Shown: positions 9,832-64,000 of the stretch, piece after piece
How the letters are laid out: each line of letters starts with the position of its first letter
Position numbering within the stretch: the stretch's first letter is position 1
Assembly (NCBI GenBank): GCA_963969395.1
Contig: OZ017799.1
Coordinates: forward strand, 2,792,501 to 2,856,500
Length of the DNA stretch: 64,000 nucleotides
Direction: 5' to 3'
DNA from: Pseudoscleropodium purum
Lineage: Eukaryota; Streptophyta; Bryopsida; Hypnales; Brachytheciaceae
Notes under the pieces: generated by a model
Databases searched by the model: none
The model's input: only the letters and a program-made list of their open reading frames with translations
Told to the model about the DNA's origin: nothing
Made by a program: the position numbers and the translations under genes

Positions 9832-15250
<5,419 letters not shown>

Positions 15251-18578: not shown

Positions 18579-21500
18579 TCAGATCCCACTCACCTCAACA
18601 GCGTGTTGGCTTTTGTCGTATGGCAGGCAGAGATTGAGGAAGAGAGCAAGGAAGCCACCGATGGAGAAACCATTTGATGCGATTATAATGACAGAATCAC
18701 GAAACGCTGCACAAAATCATCTCTGAGGTCATCTCTTGACATCAATTGAACATAATTCTTTCTTTTGACGTATGACATTTCAAACTGTAAAGATCACGAA
18801 AAGTCAATTTGCAGTCTGCATGTATTGCATGGATAGAAAGTCCTTGTTTCTACATGAAATGTGCATGTTTTTATACGACAGTTGCTAATTTTCATTCCAA
18901 TGCATATTTGACGTGAACTTTTGAATACATTACTATACTTTTCATGCATTTTTCATACAAAATCTATACGAACTCTTCTATCAATGCCAACCATGCGGAA
19001 TGCTATGCATACTGAGGTCAATTAAGTAGATAATGTCAAGTTTTGTGTTCAAGCGAATGATATTTTGGGTTGTAATCCTCTTCACCAGCCAATGGAGGAA
19101 CGAAAACAATCGAGTGCCTATTGCGAGAGGATGGAGGAATCAACAAATTACATAACTAGGAGAGGATGGAGGAACCAAACAACCAGACGACTATTGCGAG
19201 AGATTGGAGGAACCAACCATTTAAATGACTTCGAGAGAATGGCGGAACCAAGCAACCAAACGACTATTGCGAGAGGATGGCGGAACCAACCATTTAAATG
19301 ACTACGAGAGAATGGCGGAACCAAGCAACAAAATGACTATAAGAGAATGGAGGAACCAAACAACCAAATGATTACGAGAGACTGGTGGAACCAACCACTC
19401 CAATGACTACGAGAGAATGAAAGAAAAACAATACTAAGAACCAAACGATATGCGTAGCTTCTGTGTCCCCAAAACAAAACAAACGAGACCAAGCAGGAGT
19501 GGTTCCTTTGACTGACCTCGGAAGGCTGGGCTCCAGTGCGGGTTGATTTTCCAAAAGTTCCCTTGATTGGGATATAGAGCCTGCCCCGTGATATTCACCC
19601 AAGCTGGGATGATATCCACCCCCAAGCCCATGCCCAACGACATGATGGCGATGAAGCGGTTTCGTCTTGTGAACCCTCCTTGCATGTTCACCACATGCAC
19701 CCCTGCCACCAGCACCCCCGAGAACAGGAACGTGGTCATGGCCCCAAACACGCACGTTGGGATGACCAGAATCGCGGCTGCGAACTTGGCGAAGATGCCG
19801 AACAGGAGCAACCAGAAGCAACATGCAACGCCCCCGCGACGAGCTGCGCACCGGGAAAGGGAGATCACGCCGTTGTTCTGGGCGTAGGTGGTCACTGGCA
19901 TGGATGTCGCCAAGGCGCCCAGGAAGGAGTTCAGGCCTTCAGCTAGTGTGGAGCCTTGGATCCGCTTCTCGAACTCCGGACCTGGGGTACAATCAACACA
20001 TTTAGGTTACTTGCCCACTCACATTCTCAAAATCAGGCCATGATGTCATCACATCAAACTTACATCACATTCTCAAAATCAGGCCCTGGTGTCACTACAT
20101 CAAGCTTGCATCACTCTTTCTCTCAAAATTGTGCATCCGAAATGGACACTGTATGTATTGCTGTTGTGCATTTGATGTCCCTTAGTTTAGGATCTTGATA
20201 CACAATGTCTGTGTTCTTAGTATGTTGGTGTAGTGCTCATGACTTCGTTGGTGCAGTGCTTTGATGGCTGTAGAATATTATGCATGGATTCATGAAGTCC
20301 ATGAACAAGCCTAGATAACTCAATAAACGCAACAGGTTCTAAGATTACCCTAGTAGGAAAGCATGAGTCATGGGTGAAGATCCTTACCGTGAGGTTCGAG
20401 ATTACTTGCTTCAGTGGTGGCGGTCACATCCCCTATGCACTCCATGGTAATCACTATGAACACAAAAAGGATGGGCAATATTGCAGGAGCGTAGAAGCCC
20501 AAAGGGAAAGTATGTGTCCACAAGAATGTCACCCACTTGGCTTCTTGAATCAGCGATCCCGTAAGATATCTGCTTGTCATTCAAAAAAACCTTATAAGAC
20601 AACAAAACCCATAACATATCAAATTTATCAGGAGAAAAATATTATGACACCGGGCTCTGAAATCTCCTGTCAAATCATTCTTCAACATCAATGGAAAACC
20701 ATCCCCGGCGTACCGTTGATTTTGACATACACCGTTGCTGTTGCAGTTCTTGTACCGAGCCACACCCGCAACACCCGTGCCCACAAGCAGCCCTATCAAC
20801 ACCTGGCATGTACAAAAGCCCCATATCTGAAATAAGTTGAATGAAACTCAATGACAAGAATAAGTTGAAGATTAAAGCTTCATACATACAGAAAAATCAG
20901 TGAAAATCCTTCAAGCACTATTCCAGAGTTCAAACTATCGAAAAATATGCCTTGTTTATAAATTGGGCTTAGCAGAGCAAAACTCACTCCATTTGAATGA
21001 TTGCTAAAATTCTCCTGATTGACAGAATGAAATGCAAGTACCTGACAATTGCGCATGAACGGCGACCCAAAAATATCGGTTAAAATGAGGGTGAAAAAAA
21101 CGACAGAACCCAGGCCTAGATAGTTCCGGTGTCCAAATGGAAGCTCAACTTCTCCATTGCCGGAACAGAGTACCTTGCTTGTCAGAACCTGCATGGGAAA
21201 TCCCATGAAAGTGGGACTAGTCAGTCGTTAAAAACTCCAACCTAATCTCTCAAACTGACTGTTAACCCAAATCAAACACAAAGGAAGGCAGAAGCCGCAA
21301 ACAAATCAGCAGAAAATCCACCCCTTGAAGGTATTCAAGAAACCTAGTCGCAGTACAATTGGCAAGGTTTACATTAGAAACTTTCTTCAATGGCGTTGCA
21401 ACTGACACGATTTAACGAATCTAGGTTTCTTAGAGGGAGAATTTCTACTAATTTTATAAAGAGTGTTAGGGTTTTAGGTTATGGAATATAGGAGCAAGAC

Positions 21501-34079: not shown

Positions 34080-34990
34080 AACACTTTGTTTGCAAGTGTT
34101 TTTTAACCCCTAAAGGACCAAGGTGCATTTTTTGGCAACAAAACTTTTTTGGGCAAGTGTATGTGAGCGGAGATTTCCATATTTTGGCCCAAATTTTAGT
34201 GGAAGGGGTGGACGAGGAATATCTTTGATGTGCACTAAATTTCAAGATATTTGGAATTATGAGTCAAAAGTTATGGCCTAATATGTAGTTTGTTTCTCAA
34301 CTCGGGCAGTCCAAGCAGATCTGAAAATCACTTTTCTCAATAATAAATATTTGAAATTCATTTTTTAGATTTATATATACATAGAAAGTTTTGAATCATT
34401 CCATTTTGATCAATGAGTCAAAAGTTATAAGGTGTTTTAGTTTGTGGGCAATTATGGATTCTCTACTTCAAAATAAACTTTGAAGTTCTTTATTGAACTC
34501 AATTCTTAATACTTTTGAAAAAAAATAAAAAATTTTAGGTGAAGATTGTTTATTACAACATTACAACCATTGAGATTGGCATTTTTCAATTTCATAACTA
34601 AATTATTAACAATTTAGTATTTTGATTCATTCCTTACTTCTTTCTACTTATTATTTTTTTCGTATATGTTGTACAATTCCAAATGATTTGAAATTTTCAA
34701 GCATGTAGCCAACTTGCCTTGAAGAATGAATCTAAAGAATTGCAACCATTTTGAACATTTTCATACAAATGTGACCTTGTGAAGTGCAGCTGCCCAGTTT
34801 TTTTCAGGGCCAAAAAAGTCTTTTTGTCAATTGAAACGCTAATATCTTGCAATCTACGTGGTGGAAATTTCTGAAATTTTTTTCACATCTTTTCAAATTA
34901 TCATAATACAAGATCCTATGGTTGGATTTGCCCAAAAATCTTTTTAAATTTTTTTGGTACTTGTCCTAAACATGGTAGTTTTGGAGCAAG
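34080..34990 (+). repeat. Dispersed repeat copy 1
   Basis: Diverged direct relative of 60990-61800. Shared blocks in order include 'GAGGACAAGGAATATCTTTGAT'-like text, 'AAAGTTAT.GCCTAATATGT', 'TATATGTTGTACAATTCCAA' and 'ATATCTTGCAATC'. No intact coding frame. Confidence 0.7.
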
Positions 34991-36846
34991 TTTGGTGAAA
35001 ACATAGTCAAAGAACTTTAGCAATTAACCCCTAAATGACTAGTCCATTATCATATGGTAAAACTCAGTTGGTGATCTTAATTTAGACTTTAAAATCATAT
35101 ATGATTTTTAATTAAATATTTTTTCTCCATGAGAATATGAGTTATCCATCAATGTAAAATTTATATTATTTTTGTTAATAAATTATGATTTTTCTAACAT
35201 CAATACTAATGAGAAAAAATAAATTCATAATAGAACTAAAAGAATCCAATTATTTAAAAAATTCTCCAATAGATACAAGTAATCATGAGAAAAATTGTCA
35301 ATTTTTTTAATAATTGTTATTATATTTACAATTCAAATATTAGTGGCTCGAGGGGTACACTACCTAGTATATTCAAACATCATGTGTGTTCAAGCCTCTA
35401 TTATATAGGGGCTATGTAGATAGATTTTTTAAATTATATAGGGCCATCTTTAGATAAATTTCTAAACCTATCTTTTTTCATGAACCCTACATTTAATTTT
35501 AAAATTTATCATGTATTAATTTTTTGTACCCTATGTTCATTATTAGTAAAGAATAGGTGCATACTTTCTTACAAACACTTAATTGTATGAAAACTCAAAA
35601 GGAAATATGTCCAAAAATTGTGCATATATGTGATGACATACTTTAGAGAATTAGAAATAGAACCTCATTTGGAAATCCACTTGCAAACAAAGAATGCTTT
35701 GAAATACAAACTACATTCAAACAACAACTACTTCAAAGCAAAAACCATGCAAAGACTTGTCAAAACTAGAAGTGGAACCTTAGTTGGAGAAGTGTAGCTA
35801 TACAAACAACAATTTGAAATACCAACTGCATTCAATCAATAAGTATTTTCAAATACAAACTATGCAAAAACATTTGGGAATTATACAAAAAATGTGAGAA
35901 CTTGTATGAATAGAAGTTGACGTTGCAATGTGCAAAAATGTAACATATGTCTTCACAAACACACCACATGCATGGGAAATGGAGTCCAAAAATTAAAGGC
36001 TAAACAAAGAAAGATCCAGGATTTTGTTTTTAAAATGTAATAGGAAATTGGCCCTTTAACACACATGGAGATCTTGAAAATAGAACACCCCAAGAACCAA
36101 GTAGCCTATAGAGTACATTGACTTGAATGAAGTAACAAGATGCAAAAAATCTACAAATTTGCACAATACAAAGACGATAAAATTAAATGAAGAAATTAAA
36201 ATTTGAATGACAAATTAAAAAATTCAACAATTCTTAGATATAAGTAAGGGCACTACCTCAACACAATGTTCGAGTTACCCAAACATGGAGAGATTGGGCC
36301 GGACCATCTCCCTTTTGCACTAAGATTTTAGTTTGTCCCATCTATTCTAAAGAATACCTCATAGTCGATGCAGGTCTACAACACATAGCTCACCAAGTGG
36401 CATGATCTTTAGTTTCTTAGGACTTTAGCATCAAATCTCCAAAACTTAGAAAAGACATCTACCTTCTAGTCAAATGGCTACAAAACCACCTTTGCATTTC
36501 TAGCCATTCAGAAGTCCATAACAAGTCTACAAGTCTACATTGCTTGTTTGCATCACTTTCTCCTTCTTCCACTCAAATAACATGTACTTTGCAGAATCTA
36601 TTCAATTGCTCCAACTTCTTCTTGACATGCCAATTGTCTTTGGTACCTCCAAAATCAAACATCCACTCTAAAATGCCATTAGATTCAAAGGTGAACCTAA
36701 ACACCTCTAATGTCACAACACTTCTAATCTTGCCAAAGTATTTAGGATTTACAAATTCATCTTTCATCTTCCAACATCCACAAGGTGATCTTTTTGGAAA
36801 TATTAGCAGTCATTCTTCTTTCAAATTGCAAACCTCACAAACTATT

Positions 36847-36912
36847 GTATATAACCTATATTTAACTAATTATGGACAATTGCACAAATTATGGACAAAT
36901 TCATAGTCCATA
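36847..36912 (+). repeat. Left TIR of large element
   Basis: The first 33 bp (GTATATAAC... to ...TTATGGACAA, 36847-36879) match the reverse complement of 50068-50100 with about two mismatches. The left end then has an extra ~20 bp in which ATTATGGACAA is repeated, after which 'CATAGTCCA' resumes the match. Confidence 0.75.
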
Positions 36913-37532
36913 GCCACATTAAAAAAGGTAGAGAACATGCTTCAAATGATTAAAAAGTGTCGGTAGCCCACCCACACCTTGTTCAGAAGAACCGAGGGTA
37001 CAAAAAAAAGTGGATTGTTGTATTTTGGACCGGTTTCTATGCAATAGCAGAACCGGTGCCTATGACCGTGCACCCATCCCGTGCCCATTGACATATAGGC
37101 TGGCAGCCGATAAGACAGCACAGTAAAGTGCGCAAAACCAAAAAGCAGGACAACGAACAAGAAAGATAGAGATATGAGCAAATCGCCTGTGCACTGAAGA
37201 TAAAACAGTTGTAACATGGTCCCTATAGGAGATTCAAATAAATGTGATTTGTCAGCAACCAACGGATACATATTAAAAATGTCAAAATTGACTAGTCATA
37301 AGACTTATAGTCACAACCTATAAGATATGAAGGCACACCCTAAAAGATATGAAGGCACATTCACAAATGAGTAAATATTGTGGATATGCATGTAATCATC
37401 CTGAAGTGAAAACATCCTGTTCAAGAACCATGCGATTGACATGCAGCGAAGCCTTTAGTATCGGCTGGCAGCCGACACTTGCAGCGAGGACTCGGATCCG
37501 TCTAGCAATGTGATGGTGACACAACTCCAGAG

Positions 37533-40500
37533 CTAAACTATTGTATCGGCTGGCAGCCGATAGGTCCGAGGCGATATGTCAGTAATCCTCTCCGCCTTCG
37601 TCTGCATCTCTGTCCAAAGCTGCCCCGCGGCCTCCAGATTCGCAATAGCAGCAGCAACGGATGCCTCCGGGATGACATGAGATGTGGGAGGTCCTTTCTT
37701 TGCATGCGAGGGCATTCTGTGCGAATACAAGACAATGTTGACATGGACCATCTGCGGAAGACAAAGTTCCTTGTGCCATCTTCGGGTCCAGCACTCCCTT
37801 GCAATGAGCGCTTTTGACTCCCTCTTGGCTTTCATCGGAGTCCACCACTCAATTTTAAAATTACCATACGTGGGCCCCGGAGACATGTCCATACATTGGA
37901 GTACCCGTCCCAGCCAGACAGGCAGATGATTGTTGTGACATAGTCGACAAAGAACAAAGTCTCTGAGCAGAACATCCCTGAATGGATTGAATCTCAAGCG
38001 CGGCCTGTCCTTCGCAGGTCCGTAGTATGGAGTGGGATCCCCTTTGTCTTCCGAAGTGGTGTCTACTGAATAATTCTCCTCCGCCCCCTTGTCTACAAAA
38101 GTCGACGTGTGATCTCTTGTCCAATCAGAGAGCGGCCATAATCCTTCTTGAAGCAATGCAAGAGTTTGAGGCAGGGCCGAATTGATCTCCGATTGAATTC
38201 TTTCCCAGTAAGCCACACAGCTTGCCATTTCCTGTGCGTACCGTCTATCTCTGGCCATTCCCGATTTCCAGAACTCAATGAACTTTGCTATTCCATTTTT
38301 GATGAATGTCTGTTTCTCATTACACTCTGTAGCCCTTGCGACTTCCTTTTCTGCATTTCGCCTTCTGGTATTAATGTCCACATTCCCCCAGAGTGCCTTG
38401 AAAGGCACAGGTCGAGGGTCCCCCTGTGGAATATTGGGTTGTCCATTTTCGTCCGCTGTCCACATTTTGACAGGTGCACCAGGAGGCAGCCACGAAGAAT
38501 CTGTGGCCCTGAGCTTGTACCTCATGACCGGCCATCCACGATCCACACCATCCTCCACGACGTAGAACTTGAAGAGGTGTTTATCTCTGAGCCCGATGAT
38601 TTTGTTCACCCCATCATGATGGAAGCCCTTGAAGTATGATTTGAAGTCCGCCACTTCTTGCACGAACTCCGGAATGAAGGCTACAGTCTTCTATGAATCC
38701 ATGAACGCCTTCATGAGATCCGCGAGTACGTATGTGTTCTTCCTTTTGATCAGTTTAGAGAGATAACTGAAGTGCGCATCAATGTCCTCGTGCGTATGCC
38801 CGACAATAAGGAACCCCACTAAAACTTCCTTGAATATGCGCCTGGCAGTGAGCAGTGAGCAGAAAGCCATAAGGAATCGATTTTTGTTGTCCTTTGCTGA
38901 ATTGTCGAGTTGCAAGAACAGTTTCCTCGGAAGTGGGACCTGAGGTCGTCTTGGTCTCGCTGCGTCGATCACCATGTCCGAGGCCTACGAGATTGACGAG
39001 TTGCATCTCAATTTCCTATGAAGCAGAGCCTCGAAGAAGGTGTTTAGCGGTGGAGTCGAGAAGAGGATCTTGGACTCCCGAACAGGTGGTAGTTCTAGGG
39101 CCCTGAGGACCCTGCAGATGGACGAAATTGTGAAATTTGAATCCCCAGGCCAGAGTGATGTGGAGTAATGTGCATACGCGCCATCTCCATGTCCATGTGT
39201 GAGCATTCCAGTACACGAGATTGGTATTTGCCCTAGCCCTGCGGTGGCCTTGGTGATGCGCTGCATCCTCGGAATGGCAGTCTTTGTGGTGTCCATTTTG
39301 TCATGAATAATGCAGAGGAACTCTGATGGATTTTGCACCAACTGCGCGGTCCATCCACTGTATACATTTCTACAAGTGCGCTGGTAATTGAGATGTCTCT
39401 CTCTGTCGTCGACCAGGGCCTGCCACTCATCACAACCTCTTGGATACTTTGCAATGAACTCTACCAGGAAGTCACATTCTGTGCATTTTGAGAAATTGCT
39501 CCCTACCGCCTTGACCTCTACGTTTTTGAAATGAGCATTCCGAAGGCGGCTGATAGCAGACTACGAGACCGGCTTCATATTGCATATTCCATTGACCTGA
39601 AGAACATGACTTCATGGATGAGTTTCCATGGAAGACTATAGAGTTGTATCGGCTGGCAACCGACAGAACTGCAAATGACGGCCTATAGAAAGGAAAGATC
39701 AATGGCTTCTACATTCAAAGTCCAGACATGATTGTATCGGCTGGCAGCCGATAAAAGGACTTTTCTACTGTAGACGAAGAGGCAGATGATGGACTTACAT
39801 AATTGACTTGTTCGCGCATGTGATCCCAATTCATTGCAGAGGGGAGGACCTTGAGATTGTCGACGCGTTTATTTCCAACCATTCTGAACTCGTTTGGCAT
39901 TTTGTCGGCATTGTCGTCGATGATCGTTTTGAGGGTTGCTTGAGCTTGAATTGTTTGTGGCCGTGGCCGTCGGGCCCCCGCATTTCCATGCGAGCCGTTA
40001 ACGGATCCTCCCACGGCCGCAGCCTTGTAAACATGATAGGCCGACCTCGATACCCCGTGAATGATATACCATGCGTTCTCGCAGACGTCTGTATTTGCAA
40101 GAGTAATGAATTTTTTCCCTGGAATAACCCCTGCATGAAGCTGACTCTGCACCGCATACGCTACCTCCCTCCTACTCTCGAATGTACAAGCGAAGAACTT
40201 TCGTCGTATAGACCTCGTGTCCTCCCAGGGAAACGTCTGGCAGCATTTGAGCTTACAGCACTTCTGTGAGCTAACCTTACGTACCTCCGTCTTCGAGGTC
40301 TTCATTTGCAGCCTAGATTGGCTTTCGTGATCCTTGGGAATCACCCTTCCGCGCACAGAGCGGTATGGATTCCTCGGTACCCCCTGCATTCCGTTATCGT
40401 CTGACTCATTCAATAGAGCAGCCTCTGAGCAGAGCGTGACAATTTCAGATAGTAGCCTTCCACCCTGCAACCTTGTGTGTGTGAGCCTCCAGCACATGGT

Positions 40501-41730
40501 TGTCATTTGCAGTTCGTCATTGTCCGATACGAACATGACCCCGACATCCTTGTCGCCCAGGACGCCATCATCGTAGGCCTCATCTGGTAGGCAGACTTGG
40601 ATCATGGCTCTTCCGAGAACCAAGAAGTCGTCATTGAGAAGTTCACAGTATTGATTTCTCCAGAGCGGTCTATCTGGGATTGGAAGCCCAGCTTGCATTC
40701 CATCCGGATGGCCATTATCTCCACTTTGAGTATCAGCTCTAAACGCGTCCGAATGCTCCATGCTGTCAGCAACACTTGTGTCGGACACGACAGTGCCAGA
40801 GGTACTGTAACCATGAACATCGCGGTGATCCTCTGCAGACCCGCGGTTGTCATCGTCGGACGAATAGAGCCTATCATCTCGCTCGTCTTCATCTGATGCA
40901 CTAGGAAGTACTCGCTGTGTTCCCGGATCACATAATTCTACCTGTACATCGTTCGAACTCCCACCACTCTCGTAGTTACCATCGACTTGAGCCTGCATGA
41001 AATGGGTCGTAGGTTCTCCTGTCGGCTGGCAGCCGACAACCTTGGTTATTGGGACGGAGGTCTCGATTGGTCTGACCTTATAACCACTCCAGAGTATTTT
41101 GAATCCAACACAGCGTTTGAGTGTCATGAATTCAGGAATCTCGCAATAAGCACTCTGATCCTGGAAATCATCGACGACGTGCAGTAGCTTCACAACGAGG
41201 AAGAAGCTGTGAGGAACGCGAAAGCCTTCCCAGTAACCCTTCGGAGAGCAATGTACAATTGTACCTACACCAGCATACAACAGATTCGTGCCCACAGTCT
41301 GCAGTAGTGAGACATCCATATTGACAGTGAGTGACAGGAATTGTTGTATGGGTTTTTCATCTGTGGCCACTTGTATCGGCTGCCGGCCAACACCAGCAGA
41401 AGAAGACCCTTCAAACTCTGCATGGGGATAGATGTTCTCTACCTCCCACACGATCGACCTTCCCGGGCAGTGTCGCAGGAACACCATGTCTCCCTCAGGA
41501 AACGGAAGAGGCATATCGAGGTTATTTGGAATGTCTAGGACATGAACGCGTACGAGGTAGGGATCGCGGCTCACCACCCTTTCTACGACCGCCCTTCCGG
41601 AGTAGTATAATCCTTCCAGTGTAAGAGCCACAACAACTCCCTTCTGCATTTTCAGTCTTCCGGAGCCTCCATTTTTCGTGAATGCCTCAATAGGACTCGC
41701 ACCCGATGTCCAGTCATCACATCCACTCAT
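37533..41730 (-). CDS. DUF7869-type transposase-like protein
   Basis: Two exons, 39799-41730 and 37533-39596, joined by a 202-bp intron holding two palindromes (about 1,331 codons). I infer an RNase-H-like transposase. N-terminal half: unrecognised, with a Ser/Asp-rich stretch (about 280-330) and a cysteine-rich CCKLKCCQ region. C-terminal half: KCTECD, then IIHDKMD (about 738-745), QLDN (about 873-876) and GHTHEDID (about 910-917), whose acidic residues are plausible D-D-E catalytic positions, then FVLCRLCHNNHLPVWLGRV, like the family's small C-terminal domain. In-frame TAG codons occur at 39561-39563, 38985-38987 and 38691-38693. The first two could be 3' splice sites (CTCGTAG). The third interrupts a contiguous family block (AFMDS/KTVAF) and needs readthrough, recoding or pseudogenisation. 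Two diverged palindromes (41020, 41374) are translated in exon 1. The frame ends in TAG beside another palindrome (37544). Confidence 0.7.
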
Positions 41731-42948
41731 GATTTGAAATCAGAGTCAGAACCCACAATGTCGGAATCTCTGTCAGACCCGTGATGACCTTATCGGCTAG
41801 CAGCCGATACGTCTGTGTACCTGTTGCTTCACGACCTTTCTGGTACACAAATTGGTATCGGCTGGCAGCCGATACCACTGTCCGTACGGCCAAGCACAGA
41901 GGCAGGACTGTACAGCTAGAACTTTGGGAATCATGCACGAAGCTAGATTTTGCGCTTCCTATGATCTAGGCACTGTCCACAGATGCTCTGACCAGTAAAA
42001 ATAATGAAATGGAAACACATGTGCAACTGAATAGGAAATCCTGAACCTCTGTCAGGCAACTAATTTTCGAGAATGCTCCTGACTACTACTGCAATTAGAA
42101 TCCTACTGCAATTCAAATGTAGCTTGGAGCAATTCAAATCCCACTGCAAATCCTACGTAAGCCTAAACGCCACATAACAACTGTCGAAGAGTGCTTCCTG
42201 AACCCGGAGACTACTCAATGCTGCACTGAACTGAGGTCTACTGAATTCCCTGTCACATTGCATCCCTCATAAACATTCCACAACAAGCCACTGCAATTCC
42301 CTGACGGTTTTTGGACGCTCTGAGTGCGTGTGTGGGGCAAATGAAAATGGAAGTCCTCCAAGATCTGATCCTAGGTGAGCAAGCCTGAAACTGAATTTGG
42401 CGCCTGAAATTTGAATCTGGAAGAGGATGAAGTTGTGGTGATTGCAAGAGAGACAAGTCCGTGCATCGGGAGATCGTGTTGGGAAACGTACGCATCTCTG
42501 CAATGAGTGTTCGTAACTTCCATGTACTTTGCTGGATGTGGAGTACATGCAAACGGATGAAAACCTGCGATGGATGAAATTTATGGAAGAACGGACTCGG
42601 TTTGTCATGATTGCGCCTACCGGCTGGCAGCCGAGGGTTTAGGAGGTATACACCCCTGGCCACTTTCATTTTCTCTCATTTGCCATTTGCGTCTCCTGCT
42701 CTCTCTCTGTTACTCACTCTCTCTCTCACTCACTCTCAGCCTCACTCACTCTCACTTTGCCATTCTTCCTCCTTCAGTCCGGCTTGCAACTGACATCCCG
42801 TCGCAAAGCAAAGGAGCAGCTGATACATCCTAGTGCAGCCGATACGCATTTCTGGCCAGTCGACAGTGAAAGAGAGCGAGGCAAGCGTGATTTTTCAGCA
42901 GCCGACAAGTCATCTTCAGCAGCCGATAAGCGACAGAGTCCATTGGCG
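41731..42948. promoter_or_regulatory. Divergent promoter region of the element
   Basis: A 1.2-kb spacer between the start codons of the two divergent transcription units. It holds palindromes at 41791, 41856 and 42618, a long pyrimidine tract (CT/ACTC repeats, 42691-42778) and four right-arm half-sites (CAGCYGATA or CAGCCGACA at about 42817, 42836, 42899 and 42920) just upstream of the plus-strand ATG. Short frames in it are not supported as genes. Confidence 0.5.
42691..42778. repeat. Pyrimidine-rich tract
   Basis: CTCTCT and CTCACTCA repeats about 170-260 bp upstream of the ParB-like start codon. Such tracts are frequent in plant promoters and 5' leaders. A role here is inferred. Confidence 0.7.
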
Positions 42949-45900
42949 ATGGCGTCCTCCGATTTGGCGACTGAGAGGTACTTTTCACTACATGTATCGG
43001 CTGCCAGCCGATACACTGTCATTTGCTATATCATATAGGATAGCCATTTAGATTCTGAGGCACCTATTACTTGCTATATCGGCTGGCAGCCGACATACAT
43101 TGCAGCACTCACTAGGAGCCTGAGCTTAAGCTATGTCGGTTGGCAGCCGATATGATCCCGGGATGGTTGACTTAGGAATTTCTAGAAATGTCTTCCGACG
43201 GTAGGGTTTAGGGACTGAGAGGTTGTATCGGCTGGCAGCCGATACAGTGGATGCACAAAGTGAAGGTGCATAGTGTGAGTGTACTGAGAATTCAATTGTA
43301 TTGTTCTATAGGAAATCGACTTAGGAACTTCTAGAAATGTCTTCCGACGGTAGGGCTTAGGGACTGAGAGGTTGTATCGGCTGGCAGTCGATACAGTGGA
43401 TGCTCAAAGTGAAGGTGCATAGTGTGAGTGTACTGAGAATTCAATTGTATTGTTCTGTAGGAAACCGACTCTCTTGGCCCGCCTTCTGGGAAAGCAAATC
43501 CCAAACTCTCGGATATTGGGAGACGGGTTTCCATCGAGGGCAACATGGCGAGCGATCGAGGCCATCCAAGAATGGGGTCTGTATTGGAGGCAGTTACCCG
43601 ACACGACAGTGGAGATCGTATGCTCCTTCAAGCTGAAAGGGAACATGACCCCAGGCAAAAGAAGTGTATTGTCCGTCATGGCTGTTGGCGATTCCGTGCA
43701 CGTCATGATATGCTTGATGCCACTGGCAAGCACGGATGGAGTTGCCGATTATTTCGCGGTGGAGTTGCCAGTGAACAAGTGCACGGAGGAGGTCTGTGGA
43801 GAGAAGTCAGTGTCGATGGGCATGATGTTCGAGGGAAACACGCCGTCCAATGCAGAGGAGCTCATCCAGGGCTGGGAGTGCTTGAAGATAGAGCGCGATG
43901 AGCACAATGCGTTCATCGCTCGTGAGTTGGAAAAGGGGAAGAAAAAGGTACCCTCGGCGAGGAAGCAAGTGGCGGCGAGAGTGACTGAAGACGCTGCAAC
44001 TGATCTGCAGGAGACCGGGTCGCCCAGCAAACCGAAGAGAAAAGCGAAGGCCAGGGACGACCCCAATAAGCCGCTGAAGCTGACACTCAACGAGGCACTC
44101 CGGCGTGGAAATCATCTCACAACCAAGACGAAGGAGAACGAGGTGAACGCTATTTACCACGCGTTGGAAACGGGGCTCCTGCACGCGTTTCCTTACAAAA
44201 AGCAGCGTCTTCCGGGGGTCATTCACTCGGACAAATTCCACATTGCACCGGACGAGTTGAAGTACCGGAAAATTGCAAAGGACCGACTTGGCCAGGTAAT
44301 TCGACGATCACTTCCATCCTTTATTGGTTTTTATCTTCCCATATAATGTATCGGCTGGCAGCCGACATCTGTAGCTGGTCCTTAATATTTTGGCCTTCTC
44401 TCAATTCAGGTGAAGACCATGTACAAGGGATACGGGTCCATCAGGAAGAAGCCGGAAATCCATGGGATTCCTCTGAAGCGGGCTCCACTGCCAACGGACA
44501 AAGGGCTAGACGCCGTGATGGACGAGTGTCCCGGGAAGGATCAGACTGTTGTTGTCGACGGCATCTCAATGCCGTGGTGGAAGGCGCCAAATGTCCACTG
44601 GTATATCATTGGTGGGCAACACACAGTGACGGCCTGTCGAGAATTGGCCGAGCAATATCCGGACGGCTCTGAAGCCAAGACTGACCTCCTGGAGTTCGAG
44701 GTCATTCCGGTATTCAGTAGAAACCCGGACACACTCGTCAGAGTCTCCAATGCCCTCAATCTCAACATTGCGGAGAAAGTGGCAAAGGAGACCTTCAGAT
44801 CCTGCGCAGAGATGGGAAGAGCGGCGTGGGTGCAAGCGGGGTGCCCAGAGCCGCATCGTGGAGGTGGAAAGCCGTCAGCAGCATTTGAGGTAATTCCCAC
44901 GCACCTTTATTTTTTTCTCCCTTTTGATTAATATATTATGTATCGACTGGCAGCCGATACCATTCTCCCATGTTCTAAACATTGCGGTGGATCTCCTCTA
45001 GGCTGCGAAGCTGAAGGTGATGGCGCACTTCGTGGATGAGAAGGTGTCCTCCAAGTTGCCCCTCATCTTCATCAAGGAGACCACCTGGGTGCTATGGACA
45101 GAGGTCTTCGATGCATGGGAGAACGGGGAGCTTATTGGAGATGATGGGACTGTGCCAAATCTCTTCGTCAATCGGAAGCCGCTCACTCACATCACCAAAA
45201 CGGATCTCACGCCAACGCTGGGGCTTCGGGATTCGGATCTGTGCGAGCTAGGGCGGGAGATCGTTGCACTTCGCGTGAGCATCAAGAACACCGCGAAGGC
45301 CAAGTCCTCGGGGAAGATCACTCTCTTCGACTGGTGCAAGGACAAAAAGCTGGACAGGATCGTCATGAACGAGATCATGTGGACCAGGAAGAAGCATCCC
45401 CTTCCCTGCAAGGACCAGGGCTGGACCCCATATACTGACGAGGATTGGATGGAGCTTGCTGAAAAGGAGGGGTACTCAGCGGCCGTAGTCCGAAACGTCT
45501 GGAAGGACATGATGAAGTTCACGGACGCCAACAACTGGTTGAAGGGGCGAGTGAACCCTATGAATCCAACGACGAACAAGTCGAAGGATGGCAAGGCGCC
45601 GGGGGTCTTCTTCACAACGTTGGCGAACTACGCCAAAGTCGAATTGCCTCCGACGCGTGGGAAATCCGCCGACCTGAAATACGAATGCTATGTCGGAGAG
45701 AGTATTCCTGAGGTGGTCGACTTTGTCCGTCAATTGAAGGGGAATATGGCGCTGGAACCCGAGGACAAAAAATTCATTGTCCTCTTTGGGTATACAGATA
45801 TGGGGGAACCGGTTCTAGTGAACAAGAACGATCTGCTCGATCTAGCACTGGCCGCTAAAATCCCTGAGGTGGACGGCCCGAATATCGGAGAGACCGAAGC

Positions 45901-47060
45901 GTACATCCCCCTGCCAATGCTCCTTATCGGGAACACGCGTTTCCGAGATTCTATCGCGACGGCCTCGTACTCGTCCTCGTCCTCTTGGTACTACCATTCG
46001 GTGTACTATCAACCATCTCCCCGTGGAGGCTTTCAGAAGGCGGAGATTGAATCCATGCCTTTGGTCACTCTGTCCTTGACCTTCCCGAAGCCCGAGGACA
46101 GGTCCAGTATTTTCCCGGTCTTCAAGCGCTTCACTGGGATCAACAAGGCGCCCGACTGGTTCAATGTCGACGTTGAGGGCGAGGTCGACTGGAATGGCGG
46201 GATGTGCGGGGTTGGTCATGGACTTCTAGAGAAACTAATGATGCCGACCCTAAAATCCAAGGATGCCATCGTCATCAACATCTGGGGGGCCGAGAACATC
46301 ATGGAGACCGCTCTGGTAAGTTTTCTTATCCCTTCCTCACATTTGCATTGTTCAGAGGAAGTGAAATCCTGTCGGCTGGCAGCCGATACAACATGTTACT
46401 CACTTGTACTCCATGGGTTCGCAGAGGAATGGGCGGGCCGTCATGGAGTTCGTTCGGAAGGAGGACGGATTGCAGAAGGCCATGGAACGTGTGAGGGGAA
46501 TGAACCTCGTCTCCTCGGCTTCCTTAGGACCTTCTTCGGGGATGCCTGCGCTGACAGACCGGGGGGGCGCAAGCGGATCGGGGCAAGTGTCGCCTACGGC
46601 ATCACATCAGCAACCGCGGCCGATCTCAACCCTCAATCTGACGGAGACTCCCGGTGGCGCGGCGGCGCGGAGACGGCCGCAGGGTCAGTCTCAGGAGCGA
46701 CCAGAAATTCAGACGTTTCTGATTGACTCAGACAGTGATGACACCCCGAAAGAGACACTCATTCGAAGGCAACGGCAACGAAGTCCTTCATCTCCGCGGC
46801 GTTCTCTCAATCTTCCCCCAGCTTCAAATTCGGAGACGCTCGGGATGCTCCGACCGGAAAATTCATATGTCGCAATGGTCGTGGACTTGCACGTTCAACC
46901 ACCGTCAGAGGAGATTCGTAGGATTCCACAGGCTCTAGTGGTCAGTCCTACGACAGAGCCTCAAGTGGGAGTCACTGCAATTGGCCACCCCGCTACTGCA
47001 GCTGACATTAGTATCGGCTGCCAGCCGACACCCATAGTGGTTTCCCCGCTTGAACCATGA
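42949..47060 (+). CDS. ParB-like / methyltransferase-like element protein
   Basis: Five exons join in frame: 42949-42977, 43461-44295, 44410-44889, 45002-46315 and 46425-47060 (about 1,097 residues). The ATG gives MASSDLATER, and its split codon matches exon 2. An N-terminal part of unknown fold leads to a Lys-rich linker. Exon 3 has IIGGQHTVTACREL (about 354-367), resembling the ParB/sulfiredoxin-like nucleotide-binding motif. The exon 4/5 junction reads DAIVINIWGAEN...ETAL then RNGRAVMEFVRKEDG (about 869-901), echoing the final strand-loop (G.G) and acidic residue of DNA methyltransferases, but the glycine-rich loop is degenerate and I see no DPPY-type motif. The C-terminus is Ser/Pro/Gln-rich and disordered-looking. 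All four introns contain the element's palindrome. The C-terminus is uncertain: splicing around the palindrome at 47012 could join the frame at 47076 instead of stopping at TGA 47058. Confidence 0.7.
43169..43466. repeat. 149-bp tandem duplication in intron 1 of the ParB-like gene
   Basis: Two nearly identical copies, starting at 43169 and 43318 (GACTTAGGAA...). Each includes one palindrome (43226 and 43375) and ends in a TATAGGAAATC or TGTAGGAAACC block. Only the second provides the 3' splice site used in the exon model (TGTAG at 43456-43460). Confidence 0.92.
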
Positions 47061-47075
47061 CGGGGAAGAAGCAAG

Positions 47076-47258
47076 TCGGCCACGCTCGAAAAGGAGTCGG
47101 AGTCGGCAGATTCGCGGAGGTCAACTCGGGTTCAGCAAAAGCGAAAACGTCCGAGTGACGAGGAAGACGGTGGCACGGCGGCGCGGGAGCAGGACTTCCC
47201 AAATGAAGCGATGTCTCCCGCTCGATCTCAGAGGCGGGCTCAGACTGGAGGTTCGTAG
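47076..47258 (+). other. Coding-like segment, possible alternative exon of ParB-like gene
   Basis: The frame TCG GCC ACG... to TAG encodes a charged tail (for example RKRPSDEEDGGTAAREQDF) with the bias of a real exon. A GTCAGT-type donor near 46941 or a GTCACT near 46970, with acceptor AG at 47074-47075, would excise the palindrome at 47012, giving it the same mid-intron position as in introns 2-4. A donor GTTCGT at 47251 and the acceptor at 47485-47486 would extend the same frame into the FCP1-like region (GAT GAT GAC), implying one very long protein. Not proven. Confidence 0.4.
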
Positions 47259-47486
47259 GCGATAGACATGCTCCGCGATGTTTGTGGAGTATCTAAAATA
47301 GCTCATGTATACATAGCACTGCCTGGCTCAGACTTGTGCGTAGACTTGTCAGTAGGAGCCTTCATCTCGGCAGACTAGAGTACTTATGGACTGTGTCGGC
47401 TGCCAGCCGATACGGTGCACGAATGTTTTGTTATGTACCTAGGTTCATTGCTTCTCATGTTCTATGTATTTCGTTTTGCAATGCAG

Positions 47487-48331
47487 ATGATGACTCCACA
47501 ACTTCTGAGAAATTCCCCGCCACCGCGTCTAAAGGTTGGCAGGAGTGTGACAAACCAGCTCTAGAAGAAAGGGTAGGGAAATCGTCTAGTGCTGGCCCGT
47601 CTCAGGTAGCGACTCCGAAGTTGTTTCTTTTCCTTGAGGTTCAGGGAACTCTGCTCTTCTATGAGCCCCTCATTTTAAAAGGGAAAAGTATGCATCAGAG
47701 GTCACAAGTAAGACCTCGACCAGGTCTTCAGGAGTTCATCAGGTTCTGTAAGGGTCAGGACATTCAAATCATCTATTGGTCGCATTTACCCAAGAAGACT
47801 CTTGAGCAGCGTCTTCATAACCTGAAATGGCTGGTGCCGAATATCGGAGACGATTACCTGGCTTTTGGACAAGAGGACTGTGACGAGAGTGCTTATCGAG
47901 ACCCTTAGAATCCCACACGACCAATTTTTCTGAAGCGTCTCGCAAGGATTCTCGCTTCATCCTCCTTGTACGATAATGGGGCCACGATCAACAACTCATT
48001 GATCGTGGATCACGAGCCCTATCGGAACGTTTTGAATCAGCCATATAGTGCGATTCATCCACCCACGGTTGCTATGTATTCGGAGGGTTCGCTGAAGGGT
48101 GGAAAACTGCCTTTTCTCGAGGCGAAGCTCATCCCGTTCACTGAACGGTTTTTGTCTTCGGGACTCACGGTCCCAGAGTTCTGTCTAAAGAACTCTTCAC
48201 TTGGGAGTGCACGTTGTATGCCGGGCTCTCTTCTTCATAATCAGTTCGTGAATGTGACACCGCCATATCAAAAGGGATTCGAGGTGCCATATTCACTAGA
48301 GGAGCTGCAGGCCATGGGAGTTCCCAAATGA
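47487..48331 (+). pseudogene. FCP1/NLI-interacting-factor-like domain 1, in-frame TAG
   Basis: A HAD-superfamily domain of the small C-terminal-domain phosphatase type. FLEVQGTLL stands where DLDGTL is expected, followed by RPGLQEFIRFC, IIYWSHLPKKT, PIFLKRLARIL, LIVDHEPYRNVLNQP and PYSAIHPP, the order seen in plant FCP1-homology proteins. The DxD nucleophile motif is replaced (E-V-Q), and the later LIDD motif reads IVDH, so phosphatase activity is unlikely. The exon opens at acceptor AG 47485-47486 and reads DDSTTSEKF. A single TAG at 47906-47908 interrupts an otherwise continuous frame ending at TGA 48329-48331. Its upstream start is unknown; it may be spliced to the ParB-like gene. The AT-rich stretch at 48420-48500 looks like a 3' untranslated end. 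Confidence 0.65.
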
Positions 48332-48808
48332 AGCGGGTCCTAATGGAGGAGGCATAGTGTATCGGCTGCCAGCCGACACATATTTCTGTAGATTGTATAT
48401 ATTCTCTGTAGATAAAGGAGGACGTCTAGAGACTACATCTTTTGTGTACATTATTTTCTTTTGTATTGATTAAACAATTTTCTTGTAATGAAGGCATTTC
48501 AGTCCAATTTTTCCTAAAACTTGCACATGGGATACTCACTCTCAAAGCATTCAAATGTTTCCTTTGAGAGTTTCAGCATTAGGTCTTGGTCATTCTAATC
48601 AAGTGATCGCAATAATGTAGGTGCAGGCATTCACTCATCTGTGCACAATCTATCTGGCACCTTTTGTTTGTTTCTCAATATGAATTATTGGCTGCTGTCG
48701 TGTGTCAGGCCGTAGTATTGGCTGCCAGCCGATATCAATTGGCTTGTCTTCTTTCAGTGGATGTTGATGTTGTATAATCTTGTAACTACTAACTCATGTT
48801 CTGTTCAG

Positions 48809-49459
48809 GAGTCCAACGTGGGCCATTCACAGTCGTTCAAGAAATGTGTGGTTCTATGCGTCACGGGACTACTTTGTTATCTCGACCCAAACATCGAGGT
48901 GGACAAGTCGGACCCGCACAGAAATGTCATTAAAAGGCCAGGGCTAGTTGCAATGTTCATAACACTGTTTGAAAAGTTCCACGTAGGAATTTGGTCCAGG
49001 ATGCCAATAGTGGATCTTAGGCCTCTGCTTGCGCACTTGCTTCCAAAACATGTCAGAGACAACCTAGCGTTCGTTTATGGCAGAGAGTACTGTGTAGATA
49101 GCCAGAATTTCCCGTGGTGCTACAAAATGCTCTCAATACTTCACACTAAGAGACCATCCAGGATGACATGCTTCACGGACCAAGTGCTCATGGTCGATGT
49201 GTGCCCGCTTTCGCTCAGGAGGACGCCGGATACGGCGTGCTATATTCCGCTACCATTTACGGGGGATCTCAATTTCCCGAATATTAGTAGAGTTATTCCG
49301 AACATTTCAACGGATATTATTCCATTCATTTATCCCATGCACGAGCATGAGTCAGTCTCGGAATACATGAAAGGCGCAATCAGACCGGGACAATTACACT
49401 ATGAGGTTGCACAGTCAATCAAGTACGGGAAGCCAAACTGGAATGGGATATTCTGGTGA
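48809..49459 (+). CDS. FCP1/NLI-interacting-factor-like domain 2
   Basis: A second, diverged HAD/FCP1-like domain, spliced in at TTCAG (48804-48808), phase 0. It reads KKCVVLCVTGLLCYLDP (aspartates of DLDGTL replaced), then KRPGLVAMFITLFEKFHVGIWSRM, typical of the family's RPGL..FL...F.VG.WSS, then VYGREYC, VLMVDVCPLSLRR in place of LIDDSP, and CYIPLPFTG. It ends in TGA at 49457-49459. The missing nucleophile predicts a catalytically dead binding domain. The 5' exon is not identified; two palindromes (48360, 48716) lie in the gap from domain 1, which could be an intron of one gene or an intergenic spacer. Confidence 0.6.
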   Translation, partial: ESNVGHSQSFKKCVVLCVTGLLCYLDPNIEVDKSDPHRNVIKRPGLVAMFITLFEKFHVGIWSRMPIVDLRPLLAHLLPKHVRDNLAFVYGREYCVDSQNFPWCYKMLSILHTKRPSRMTCFTDQVLMVDVCPLSLRRTPDTACYIPLPFTGDLNFPNISRVIPNISTDIIPFIYPMHEHESVSEYMKGAIRPGQLHYEVAQSIKYGKPNWNGIFW

Positions 49460-50054
49460 TTTGCCCTACATGGTGTCGGCCGCCAGCCGATACCCTTGCA
49501 GACTGGAATCAGGGGGGGCTTCAATACCTTCCAATCTCGTCCCCTTTACCTTATTCCCAAATTTGAACGGCTTTATTGTCAACGCCAGTATTATCGAATC
49601 GACTGCCTCTTCACTTCAAGACCTATTCTCTGGAGTTTTCTGGGGGGGATATCGGCTGCCAGCTGATACGAGCAATTCAGTTCATTGGATCAGATGGACT
49701 CAGGGTTTAGGGTTTAAGGAGGAGCATTCGTTGCTCTTCATCTTACAGATGGCTGCCATAGTCGATTTTCATAGTTTACGTAGTGCAAACACTTTCATAG
49801 ATCTAGGTGCTTTAGAAAATGATGTTAGGAATCGGTTGGCAGTATCAGGCGCCAGCCGATACTTTGTTCCAAATTTGGACACAACATAGGAGCTTATGAA
49901 ATTATTCATTTAACTACTAATTGGAGGCTCTGAACTCAATAACTTACCGTGTGTTGTGGTACTTTGGTTTGTTTAGTGGTTGCGTCCATTTCTGTTCATT
50001 GCTTATGACACAAATCTATGCATTCGACTATATCGGCTGACGGCCGATATATTT
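49460..50054. other. 3' end region of the large element
   Basis: Follows the last stop codon. Holds four increasingly degenerate palindromes (49474, 49650, 49843, 50031), an extra half-site at 49831, and a telo-box-like GGGTTTAGGGTTTAAGG at about 49699. No gene was recognised. Confidence 0.5.
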
Positions 50055-50100
50055 CTGGACTATGGATTTGTCCATAATTAGTTAAATATTAGTTATATAC
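50055..50100 (-). repeat. Right TIR of large element
   Basis: Inverse partner of 36847-36912. Read on the plus strand it runs from GGACTATGGATTTGTCCATA to ...GTTATATAC. The TATGGA..TCCATA part is itself an inverted repeat. Confidence 0.75.
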
Positions 50101-60989: not shown

Positions 60990-61800
60990 TTTGGTTATAT
61001 AGAAATTTTGGGCAGGTATGTGTAACTAAAGATCTTCATATTTTTAACCCAAATTTTTATAGAAGGTGAGGACAAGGAATATCTTTGATATGCACAAAAT
61101 TTTATGACATTTGGAAATAGGAGTCGAAAGTTATAGCCTAATATGTTTTTTTTTGCAAATGGGCAATTTGAGCATATAAGAAAAATCCAATTTTTTCAGA
61201 AATAAAAATTTGAAATTGATTTTTTCAAGTTACATATATGTGAAAAGCTTTGAATTATTCTATTTTGATTGATGAGGATTAATGAGGATTTTTTGTTTGT
61301 AGGTAGTTATGGATTTTCTATTCTAAAATAAACTTTGAAGTCCTTTATCTTAGTCAATTTTCAAATATTTCTGAAAAAAATATAATCATAGGATGTAGAT
61401 TTTTAATTGCAACATTGCAACCATTGGTATTGGCATTTTTCAATTTTATAATTTAATTCTTAACAATTTAGTATTTTAATTCATTCTCTACTATTGTCTA
61501 CTAACTAATTTTTTTCCTATATGTTGTACAATTCCAAATGATTTGAAAATTTTCAAGCTTGTAGACAACAAGAAGAAGAATTCATAGAAGCAATACCATT
61601 TTGGACGTTTTTTTGTAGAAAAGTGAGCTTGTGAAGTGTAGCTACCTTCTTTTTGTAGGGCCAAATAAATGATATTAATGAATTTGAATGCTTATATCTT
61701 GCAATCCACACAGTGGAAATTTCTGAAATTTTTACCATATGTTTTTGAGCCAATATACTACAAGATCTTATGCTTACATGTATCCAAAAATGTTTTTTTT
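60990..61800 (+). repeat. Dispersed repeat copy 2
   Basis: Diverged direct relative of 34080-34990, with blocks in the same order and only small gaps. No intact frame, so the source family cannot be named. Confidence 0.7.
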
Positions 61801-64000
61801 TTCAAAAATTTGTTATTTATATTGTAAATGGCAGTTTTTGAGCATTTTTGGTAATAATATAGTTGTAGAACTTTAAGCATTAAATCAAAATTAAACAAAA
61901 AAATGTTTATGAAAATAATTGATGATGGTTGCTCTAAATTCAAGGGGAAGACACCCATAATTCTACTTGTGTTAACGCTATGTATAGCATGTAAGAGTAC
62001 TTCCACCACACGAGAAAGAAAAGGGAACCCTTTGTCAAAAAAAACGTGAATGAACTCTATGGCAAATGTTTGATGCTGCAATAGAACATTTCTACTTATT
62101 GTTACTAAGGATAGTTTTGTCAAAAGCAATAAAAGTCTTTAGTCACAACTAAAATTACAGGAGTGTCTTTGTTAAATATGACATTTACTTCAAGAGGACA
62201 CAAATAATATAGGATGAAGGTTATTTCCATGTTGCATATAACATGCACTAGTACAAATATAGGTCCAATAGTGTAGGAAATTGTGTCACTTCTACATTAA
62301 AGTTGTTAGAGATAATACAATTTTTGTTCATTATGAAAATAATTGAAAACAATTGTGGCAAAGTTGTATTGGTTTTGTTCTTTTGTTAGTCTAAACAGAT
62401 GCCAAATATAAATCTAACAAAATCTTGCATACAATATGATTATGTTGGCCCTAATCAATAGAAATAGTGTCTCCATGCATTACAGATACATATAGAATAT
62501 GAGATAATTTGGAGCAAGGTGGAAGCACAACCACTCAAAATTATGGCATCCAAATAAACTCAAAAAATATGATCTTATTGGAGCTTTAGATCTCATTTAA
62601 GCACAAGAATTCAACTTTTTCAAAAAAAATTATGACTAAGAAATTGTGGAAATTCAATCTTGAATGCCTAATGCAAGTAGCTATAATACAAACCCAAATT
62701 CATTCAAATTGCATCAAATTGAAGAGTGATAGTAATCTAAATTGAGGATGAGAATGTGTAATCCAATCGGTGATAGTAGATTTAGTTCTATTAAAAATTA
62801 TATTTGAGTACTTAAAAGGCATATTGTGATACAATAGTTATTAGCAATCAATGTTCCAATAGGGGGTCCAACAACCTCAAGATTCCAATTTGCCACATTG
62901 AATCAAATGCAATGAATGTATTTATGATAGAAATTCAAACCTCATTTGAATATATGAAATCAAATTTTCTCACTTCTTTGACTGTCAACATTAAAAATGT
63001 AGATGGTTGAGTTGACTTTTATTTGCAAAAATCCATTTGAGATTTGAAGCCTTCAATCAAAAGTTATAGGCAAAGTTTGAAGATGGGTGATTAATATGCA
63101 TCAATATTCTTCTATAAATTGTGTTTATAAATTTTGATTGAAGGCTTCAAGTAAGAAAAAAAATTGGAGTTGAAAGTCAATTTAATCATCTAAATTTTCT
63201 TCATTGACCAAGTTTTGAAAAAAGTTGACTTATCATGCTCAAATGAGGTCTAAACTTCTACTTAGAATATAAATACTGCTTTCTTGACTTGAAAATGAGC
63301 TCAAGTACATCCTTTTACATGGATTGATGTACTTCCTACAATTACATTGGTATAATGCATTTGTCTTCTCCCCAAATTGATTGGCTTGTGAAGCTATGCA
63401 AATTTTCACATATTTTAGTTATTTTTTTAGAAGTTTCTTTATCTTTCTAATTAGGTTTCTAGATAAGTTTTGCATACATTAGTCTTTGTATTTTGTGTTG
63501 CATTAACAAGGAAATTCTTGAAGCAATGTAAAGGTTGAACAATGAAGGGCCCTGCACTCAATAATTAATCTCTATCTATGTTAGCTTCTTTGTTCCATAT
63601 TGTGACAAAGTTTCTAGATAATTTGTAGCCTAGTATGTGTATTATTGCAAGGGGATTTTCGATGCAATATAGGAGTCCAAAAGAAGGTCATTGTAGACAA
63701 TAGCAAATTTTCACCCCGACATGTTTCTTCATCCTTAATGGTGATTAGGTTTCTCAATAAATTTGTAGATTCTTTTTGTGATATTGATAAGTTTTTTCAA
63801 AGCAATATTGACTAGAACATGAAGATATTGCAATCAATAGCTATAGTATGTCCTTGCTATTCTATAAAAAAAATTTAAAAGCATAGTACAACAACTAATG
63901 GTTGTGAATATTATTTGAGATTCCTCAAGGTTTTGACCACCAAAATTAATGTGTAGTAGCAATCCCATATTAAAAGTTGTAAGGTCAAAAATTTGAGTGC

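Follow-up and report, generated by a model that had tools for sequence, protein, structure and literature searches.

A two-gene DUF7869 DNA transposon of Pseudoscleropodium purum repeats a family-specific palindrome through its noncoding DNA

Results

The window analyzed here is a 64,000-nucleotide stretch of the Pseudoscleropodium purum genome (contig OZ017799.1, positions 2,792,501 to 2,856,500). It contains an island of 13,242 bp (window positions 36853–50094, termini AAC...GTT), a large mobile element that is self-contained and belongs to the DNA transposons, with two genes, in which a 19-bp palindrome, TATCGGCTGSCAGCCGATA, recurs 26 times. The GC content is 0.494 within the island and 0.351 outside it, a sharp rise that a sequence-only reading of the window had already reported, and BLAST of the island against the window flanks gave no match. 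The 27-nt left terminal inverted repeat (36853–36879, plus strand) and its right counterpart (50068–50094, minus strand) are identical at 25 of 27 positions, and the element is bounded by the target site duplication ATAT (36849–36852 and 50095–50098). The inverted ends of the sequence-only reading are therefore present, but its termini lay 6 bases too far out on each side: comparison of the copies resolves the outer GTATAT/ATATAC into the 4-bp target duplication plus adjacent bases.

The ends were set by comparison of eight copies. In the host assembly (313 Mb, 52 contigs), 10 islands were fetched from contig C1, all 10 of which contain element sequence; seven were delimited at both ends and aligned with the window copy (n = 8), with I6 (match ends before the right end), I3 (large gaps break the alignment), and I8 (left part beyond the fetched stretch, plus an insertion) omitted. 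The eight full-length copies are 95.2–96.7% identical in pairwise comparisons and share the termini AAC...GTT, or AAC...ATT in two of them. A 4-bp target duplication is exact in seven of the eight, the window copy included (ATAT, CTTA, AAAT, GTTT, TTAC, GTAG, and ATTT), and inexact in one (TTTT/TTTC). An empty site, the absence of which the sequence-only reading would have counted against a single mobile unit, was found on contig C42; it is a paralogous site that aligns over the joined flanks (83% identity over 98 bases) and has one target copy only, differing by one base. With inverted ends, a duplication of fixed length, several copies, and an empty site, the island is a terminal inverted repeat DNA transposon (class II, subclass 1), and the earlier proposal of a large mobile element is borne out. 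Kolobok elements are characterized by a TTAA target duplication, which was not seen among the seven exact duplications, and CACTA elements by CACTA termini and a 3-bp duplication, neither of which matches the ends and the 4-bp duplication observed here.

The two genes of the element, M (minus strand) and P (plus strand), form a divergent pair and were modeled by inspection of splice signals. Gene M comprises about 1320 codons in two exons, exon 1 (39799–41730, start ATG at 41730) and exon 2 (37533–39560), separated by a GT-AG intron (39561–39798). Exon 2 encodes a DUF7869 domain (Pfam PF25273), as the sequence-only reading had recognized, with E = 1.6e-31 on a single frame and E = 3.2e-41 when two in-frame TAG codons (38985–38987 and 38691–38693) are read through. 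DUF7869 is the sole Pfam family above the cut-off in gene M, and no Mutator-type transposase was detected there. Among the acidic residues that are invariant across five aligned DUF7869 proteins are D731, D734, D863, D903, and D905 of the window protein. The gene M product is probably a DDE/D-type transposase. Single-sequence structure models reached a mean predicted local distance difference test (pLDDT) score of 36 and 38, and the fold with a score of 36 is unusable for placing a DDE/D triad in an RNase H fold. In the literature searched, no paper on DUF7869 was found.

Gene P spans six exons and 1442 codons: exon 1 (42949–42977), exon 2 (43461–44295), exon 3 (44410–44889), exon 4 (45002–46315), exon 5 (46425–47250, with an in-frame TGA at 47058–47060), and exon 6 (47487–48330, with an in-frame TAG at 47906–47908). 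Exon 2 gives a weak hit to the NCBIfam ProQ family (E = 0.0083) that falls well short of the family cut-off. Of the two FCP1-like domains described in the sequence-only reading, the one at the end of gene P, in exon 6, falls below the Pfam cut-off (E = 0.12, or 0.015 read through), and the other, a second FCP1/NIF-like exon or gene on the plus strand (48809–49459), lies above it (PF03031, E = 4.4e-6). FCP1/NIF phosphatases of the haloacid dehalogenase (HAD) type have a catalytic DxDx motif, which was not matched in the translations of the window element (EVQGT and CVTGL) or in that of a related family, C, described below (DLNGV).

The sequence-only reading had also labeled gene P ParB-like and methyltransferase-like, and this label finds no support in Pfam, NCBIfam, or the PDB. 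Exons 3 and 4 have no match in Pfam or NCBIfam; in PHROGs, exon 3 matches weakly two unnamed families (best E = 0.023) and exon 4 an integrase family (E = 0.065). PDB searches with these exons returned no ParB and no methyltransferase, a three-family profile returned dihydrofolate reductases only (E ≥ 0.76), and a phage tblastn search with exon 3 gave no match. A single ParB-like profile was built, from YbdM and 116 of its relatives. Against it, ten shuffles outscored exons 3 and 4 together, and exon 3 alone was not among the best 20 listed; hhalign aligned the GQH motif with a probability of 0.4%. The sole remaining likeness to ParB is a motif in exon 3, IIGGQHT, which reads IINGQHS and IINVQHN in the two other families compared. 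GxxR, named as the ParB/Srx nucleotide-binding motif in PMC12704722, is absent from all three, which have GQHT, GQHS, and VQHN instead.

At ≤3 mismatches, the palindrome has 26 matches in the window, all within 37094–50049, and none in 100 dinucleotide shuffles; a tolerance of 6 mismatches adds only three, one of them beyond the island. Confinement to the island, with about 27 copies, had been noted from the sequence; the confinement holds and the count is 26. The extended consensus is gTRTCGGCTGSCAGCCGAYAc, and the flanks of the individual sites appear unrelated, apart from one 149-bp tandem pair. Although predicted coding sequence accounts for 67% of the element, 22 of the 26 palindromes lie outside it (binomial p = 6e-8). 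Each of the six predicted introns contains at least one, giving 11 intronic sites: numbered from the left, palindromes 4 and 5 in the gene M intron (39647–39665 and 39735–39753); 11–15 in gene P intron 1 (42995–43013, 43077–43095, 43134–43152, and the two tandem units at 43226–43244 and 43375–43393); and 16, 17, 18, and 20 in introns 2 (44349–44367), 3 (44941–44959), 4 (46370–46388), and 5 (47394–47412). Eleven further sites occupy intergenic or terminal DNA, namely palindromes 1 and 2 in the left terminal region (37094–37112 and 37459–37477), 8–10 between the genes (41791–41809, 41856–41874, and 42618–42636), 21 after the gene P stop (48360–48378), 22 upstream of the second FCP1-like exon (48716–48734), and 23–26 in the right terminal region (49474–49492, 49650–49668, 49843–49861, and 50031–50049). 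The remaining four are palindrome 3 at the 3′ end of the gene M coding sequence (37544–37562), 6 and 7 inside it (41020–41038 and 41374–41392), and 19 in gene P exon 5 (47012–47030). The three at 41020, 41374, and 47012 share one reading frame and encode GCQP or GRQP. A row of single half-sites, CAGCCGAT and CAGCCGAC, occupies 42826–42932 immediately before the start of gene P and is possibly its promoter.

At its center, the palindrome has G in 16 of the 18 sites to the left of 46.5 kb and C in seven of the eight to the right (the remaining one being A), a switch in polarity reached in the window copy by 8 of 20,000 permutations. Between 20 and 26 of the 26 sites are retained in each of the eight copies; since the polarity is inherited by nearly all of them, the copies are no independent evidence for function. 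Genome-wide, the exact 19-mer occurs at 485 places and a reversed-pattern control at none. Among these, 50 listed places fall into 14 clusters, the widest spanning 12.2 kb and three holding one or two copies only, and all 10 clusters that were fetched contain element sequence; the scatter across the genome that would have spoken against a single unit was not seen among the listed places. Among viral contigs, two had one 19-mer match each, judged to be chance, and searches with a DUF7869 frame and with gene P exon 4 found no relatives. Nothing was matched by Rfam at gathering scores or by a tRNA scan.

The DUF7869 domain is abundant in the host, with at least 181 matches to PF25273 (150 of 885 candidates scored); 14 control genomes gave no match. 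The first four further loci to be read define families A, B, C, and D, the window element representing family W. Families B, C, and D each have a repeated motif of their own, a palindrome with a single central base as in W, mostly G or C: ATCGTTGASTCAACGAT in B, where it is the core of a 14+1+14 palindrome, TCAGCGCGASTCGCGCTGA in C, and TATCCTCGASTCGAGGATA in D. Family B has five sites in an array with 86-bp spacing and one weaker site, with arms of up to 14; family C has seven sites (≤4 mismatches) beside gene M; and family D has six (≤2 mismatches). In a test for exact 7+1+7 arms against 200 dinucleotide shuffles, W, C, and D exceeded every shuffle. Family B, whose commonest arm occurs once, did not, owing to an arm change in every site but one. 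The DUF7869 protein of family A (locus L145, 527–3754) has 1075 aa in a single frame without stops and may represent either a domesticated copy or a distinct lineage.

Exact matches to the sister palindromes occur at 103 (B), 81 (C), and 46 (D) places in the genome, and the reversed-pattern control gave 0 for each. Within 20 kb of a listed DUF7869 match are 45 of the 50 C places listed (of 81), 27 of the 46 D places, and 35 of the 50 B places listed (of 103), relative to a chance expectation of about 1.8%. This test used 139 listed DUF7869 places, with contig C47, where no palindrome was listed, omitted, and these counts are lower bounds because the DUF7869 list is incomplete. As far as elements were read (W, three copies of C, two stretches of D, one each of B and A, and the window flanks), the motifs are private to their families: none of these sequences holds the palindrome of another family at ≤3 mismatches (≤2 for B). 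At three loci, the B palindromes form two clusters 10–12 kb apart (C1:11075124–11087629, C40:20862582–20873410, and C42:14691195–14702784), one with central C and the other, read on the same strand, with central G, a mirror arrangement resembling that of the window element; this is not so at C41:14515054/14533575.

Genes M and P form a homologous pair in families C and D. Family C, followed over 17 kb in two copies, contains gene M, a further cluster of palindromes, and, running divergently, a multi-exon relative of gene P, whose ParB-like exon and exon 4 match those of W in pairwise BLAST (E = 8e-6 and 7e-5) and which ends in a clear FCP1-like domain (E = 1.9e-19), the counterpart of the weak one in W. 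Family D was read as two stretches from different copies, L148 with gene M and palindromes and L153 with gene P-like exons, the latter 8–15 kb away from an oppositely oriented DUF7869 match. These D exons are close to those of C (E = 5e-28 and 2e-59) and weakly like those of W (4e-4 and 0.08). Introns of C and D, identified from splice signals by inspection, correspond to introns 3 and 4 of W. In the first of these, which follows the ParB-like exon, sites lie at 44941 in W, at C3:13586 in C, and at L153:5553 and 5682 in D; in the second, which follows exon 4, they lie at 46370 in W, at 15064 and 15153 in C, and at 7114 in D. Thus, the intron positions match among W, C, and D while the sequence written there is family-specific. 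Gene P has diverged more than gene M, with identities of 31–34% compared with 48% between C and D and 23–29% compared with 33% between W and C; among W, B, C, and D, transposase identity is no more than 30–64%.

Relative to the majority base of the eight copies, transitions occur at 5.7% of CG, 6.7% of CHG, 1.4% of CHH, and 0.26% of A/T positions, a bias indicating past methylation and continuing decay of the copies. In the flanking DNA, CG is scarce and CAG/CTG is depleted relative to a Markov expectation (0.70 on the left and 0.39 on the right), with CAA, CAT, and CAC undepleted and TAG/CTA enriched; the depletion of CG and CAG/CTG is a mark of CG and CHG methylation and by itself makes a plant or streptophyte the most likely host. 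Together, these signatures point to silencing of the element copies by the host through plant-type CG/CHG methylation. The window copy has two in-frame stops in each gene (three TAG and one TGA), and the other copies have 5 to 52 stops per gene, counts that include out-of-frame reading after indels. A recoded TAG or changed genetic code was considered and rejected, since each of the four stops corresponds to a sense codon in most of the seven other copies and the direction of the changes fits the general CG/CHG decay.

The window is eukaryotic by its content, with GT-AG introns in the modeled genes, a Tc1-type transposase frame, and a xanthine/uracil permease frame. The Tc1-type frame (DDE_3, E = 4e-12), unexpected in a plant-like host, lies at 1646–2455, and the permease frame, a fragment (PF00860, E = 2.2e-25), at 19437–20006. 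A 0.9-kb repeat with 75% identity flanks the element on either side (34147–35027 and 61006–61883) and was not linked to it.

Discussion

We favor the interpretation, with a probability of roughly 55%, that an element-encoded protein, probably the gene P product, counters silencing and has the palindromes as its family-specific binding sites; protein binding, the identity of the binder, and the antisilencing role are inferred. That the element's own proteins recognize the palindrome was likewise an inference of the sequence-only reading, and it is strengthened by the differing palindromes of the related families. In this interpretation, DUF7869 marks a transposon superfamily, of which the W family makes 4-bp target duplications, and at least four families each repeat a single-centered palindrome of their own through noncoding DNA, in the case of W through terminal regions, intergenic space, and introns. 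The motif would be bound by a protein of the same family, probably the gene P product, as a symmetric dimer; binding would keep the element clear of CG/CHG methylation by the host, or expressed in some other way, and would leave relatives with other palindromes unaffected, in convergence with the VANC proteins of the Arabidopsis VANDAL elements. Because the sites span the element and keep to noncoding DNA, binding would most plausibly act on the whole element in chromatin. Gene P is the suspected binder on account of its greater divergence between families, and the change of whole sets of sites, the noncoding placement, and the fast-diverging second gene resemble VANC/VANDAL, which favors a gene P-like dimer. 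More tentatively, and at somewhat less than even odds, the families may represent an independent, convergent origin of sequence-specific self-marking outside Mutator, with private palindromic codes placed in introns and promoters and a coevolving gene P that would lift CG/CHG methylation family by family, which would let several related families coexist in one genome without cross-activation.

Several observations weigh against this interpretation. Family A has DUF7869 without a repeated palindrome, and 19 of 46 D places and 15 of the 50 listed B places lie more than 20 kb from any DUF7869 match in the incomplete list. No gene P was found in the single 9.9-kb stretch of family B that was read. 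Most of the sites read in B, C, and D form clusters next to the transposase and, for C and D, also next to gene P, so that promoter or transposase-binding sites would also fit. Three of the four palindromes in predicted coding sequence of the window element are well inside it (the fourth is at its end), one C site (C3:12291) may also fall within coding sequence, and the introns were predicted from sequence, not from transcripts. Gene P has no recognized DNA-binding domain, and a ParB fold, considered as a candidate, was rejected because every profile test made came out negative. Finally, the cytosines of the palindromes are not spared from decay (CG 4.1% and CHG 7.4% inside compared with 5.7% and 6.7% outside), which counts against visible protection, yet long-silenced copies would show the same.

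The main rival binder is the DUF7869 transposase, since the B, C, and D sites stand beside its gene, just 5′ of it; the palindromes would then serve the assembly or regulation of transposition and have been multiplied inward. The four W sites within the final 650 bp of the right end are in keeping with this, and the sequence divergence of the transposases of W, B, C, and D is such that their specificity could differ. However, the W sites extend across all 13 kb and into every predicted intron, and the outermost left site is 241 bp from the left end. Ac/Ds and CACTA elements have subterminal transposase-binding sites, and such systems are not known to fill introns. We regard a transposase-binding role as unlikely.

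Explanations by RNA hairpins, partition sites, or neutral spread are less likely than either protein-binding reading. Sites acting in RNA, as intronic hairpins that steer splicing or yield small RNAs, would suit the 11 intronic palindromes, and two adjacent sites in intron 1 do pair strongly (z = −4.36), but as many sites are intergenic or terminal, the other four folded stretches bearing sites gave z = 0.30, −0.82, −1.29, and −2.08, and a one-base center is better suited to a DNA dimer site than to an RNA loop, which makes this role very improbable. Equally improbable is an episomal or viral phase of the element in which the sites would serve partition, in the manner of parS, or replication: the annotation of P1 parS includes ParB-binding sites, and palindromic sites occur here together with a ParB-like motif in gene P, but Pfam scans of the main frames of the element gave no ParA, replication, or virion family, and the ParB fold is without profile support in a protein that lacks GxxR in the three families compared. 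That the 19-mers are tiny self-spreading repeats without function for the element would account for the unrelated flanks of all but the tandem pair; against so slim a prospect stand the confinement of the sites to the element within the window, the restriction of one motif to each family in the elements read, the site places common to eight copies, and the avoidance of coding sequence.

Returning to the favored reading, binding by a gene P-like protein, the closest parallel is the VANDAL/VANC system, which differs from the elements described here in several respects. VANDAL elements make a 9-bp target duplication and have a Mutator transposase, whereas the W family makes one of 4 bp and has DUF7869; the second gene here belongs to no known family, and its antisilencing role is putative. 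In Spm/En, TnpA is linked to demethylation. Spm/En TnpA and the Ac transposase are also element-encoded proteins with many short sites in the element, like the putative binder here, but their sites are subterminal and those of W occupy the whole element and every predicted intron. We know of no palindrome system in the fungal DNA transposons that encode TET/JBP. According to PMC5735166 and PMC10398659, the YAGTATTAY motif is bound by VANC21 within introns as well as in intergenic and terminal parts, the density of the motif matters, and methylation is lost over the element. By those sources, VANDALs, which are Arabidopsis Mutator-like elements (MULEs), are likewise DNA transposons with an extra gene, methylated by the host, with a short family-specific motif repeated in intronic, intergenic, and terminal noncoding parts; there the motif is in tandem repeats, and here it is a palindromic 19-mer. 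The TET/JBP transposons (PMC12730594) also bear a gene that seems directed at the DNA methylation of the host, a putative role here, but Pfam scans of the frames of the W element gave no TET/JBP family. Phage ParB-methyltransferase fusions (surveyed in PMC12704722) share the IIGGQHT-type motif of gene P exon 3, with the methyltransferase-like part of gene P unconfirmed, and differ in that gene P has no Pfam, NCBIfam, or PDB match and no GxxR.

No paper describing this combination of features was found in the literature searched. To our knowledge, sequence-specific antisilencing by transposons is known chiefly from VANDALs and also from Spm TnpA. If the favored reading is true, the DUF7869 elements would add an unrelated lineage whose palindromic codes are clean and can be counted, with four or more specificities in a single genome. 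It would then be testable how the DNA-binding specificity of a parasite changes in step with its many sites and how activation of one transposon by a related one is avoided. The pairing of motif to family provides ready-made binding targets, and the finding points to a transposase role for DUF7869, a domain of unknown function.

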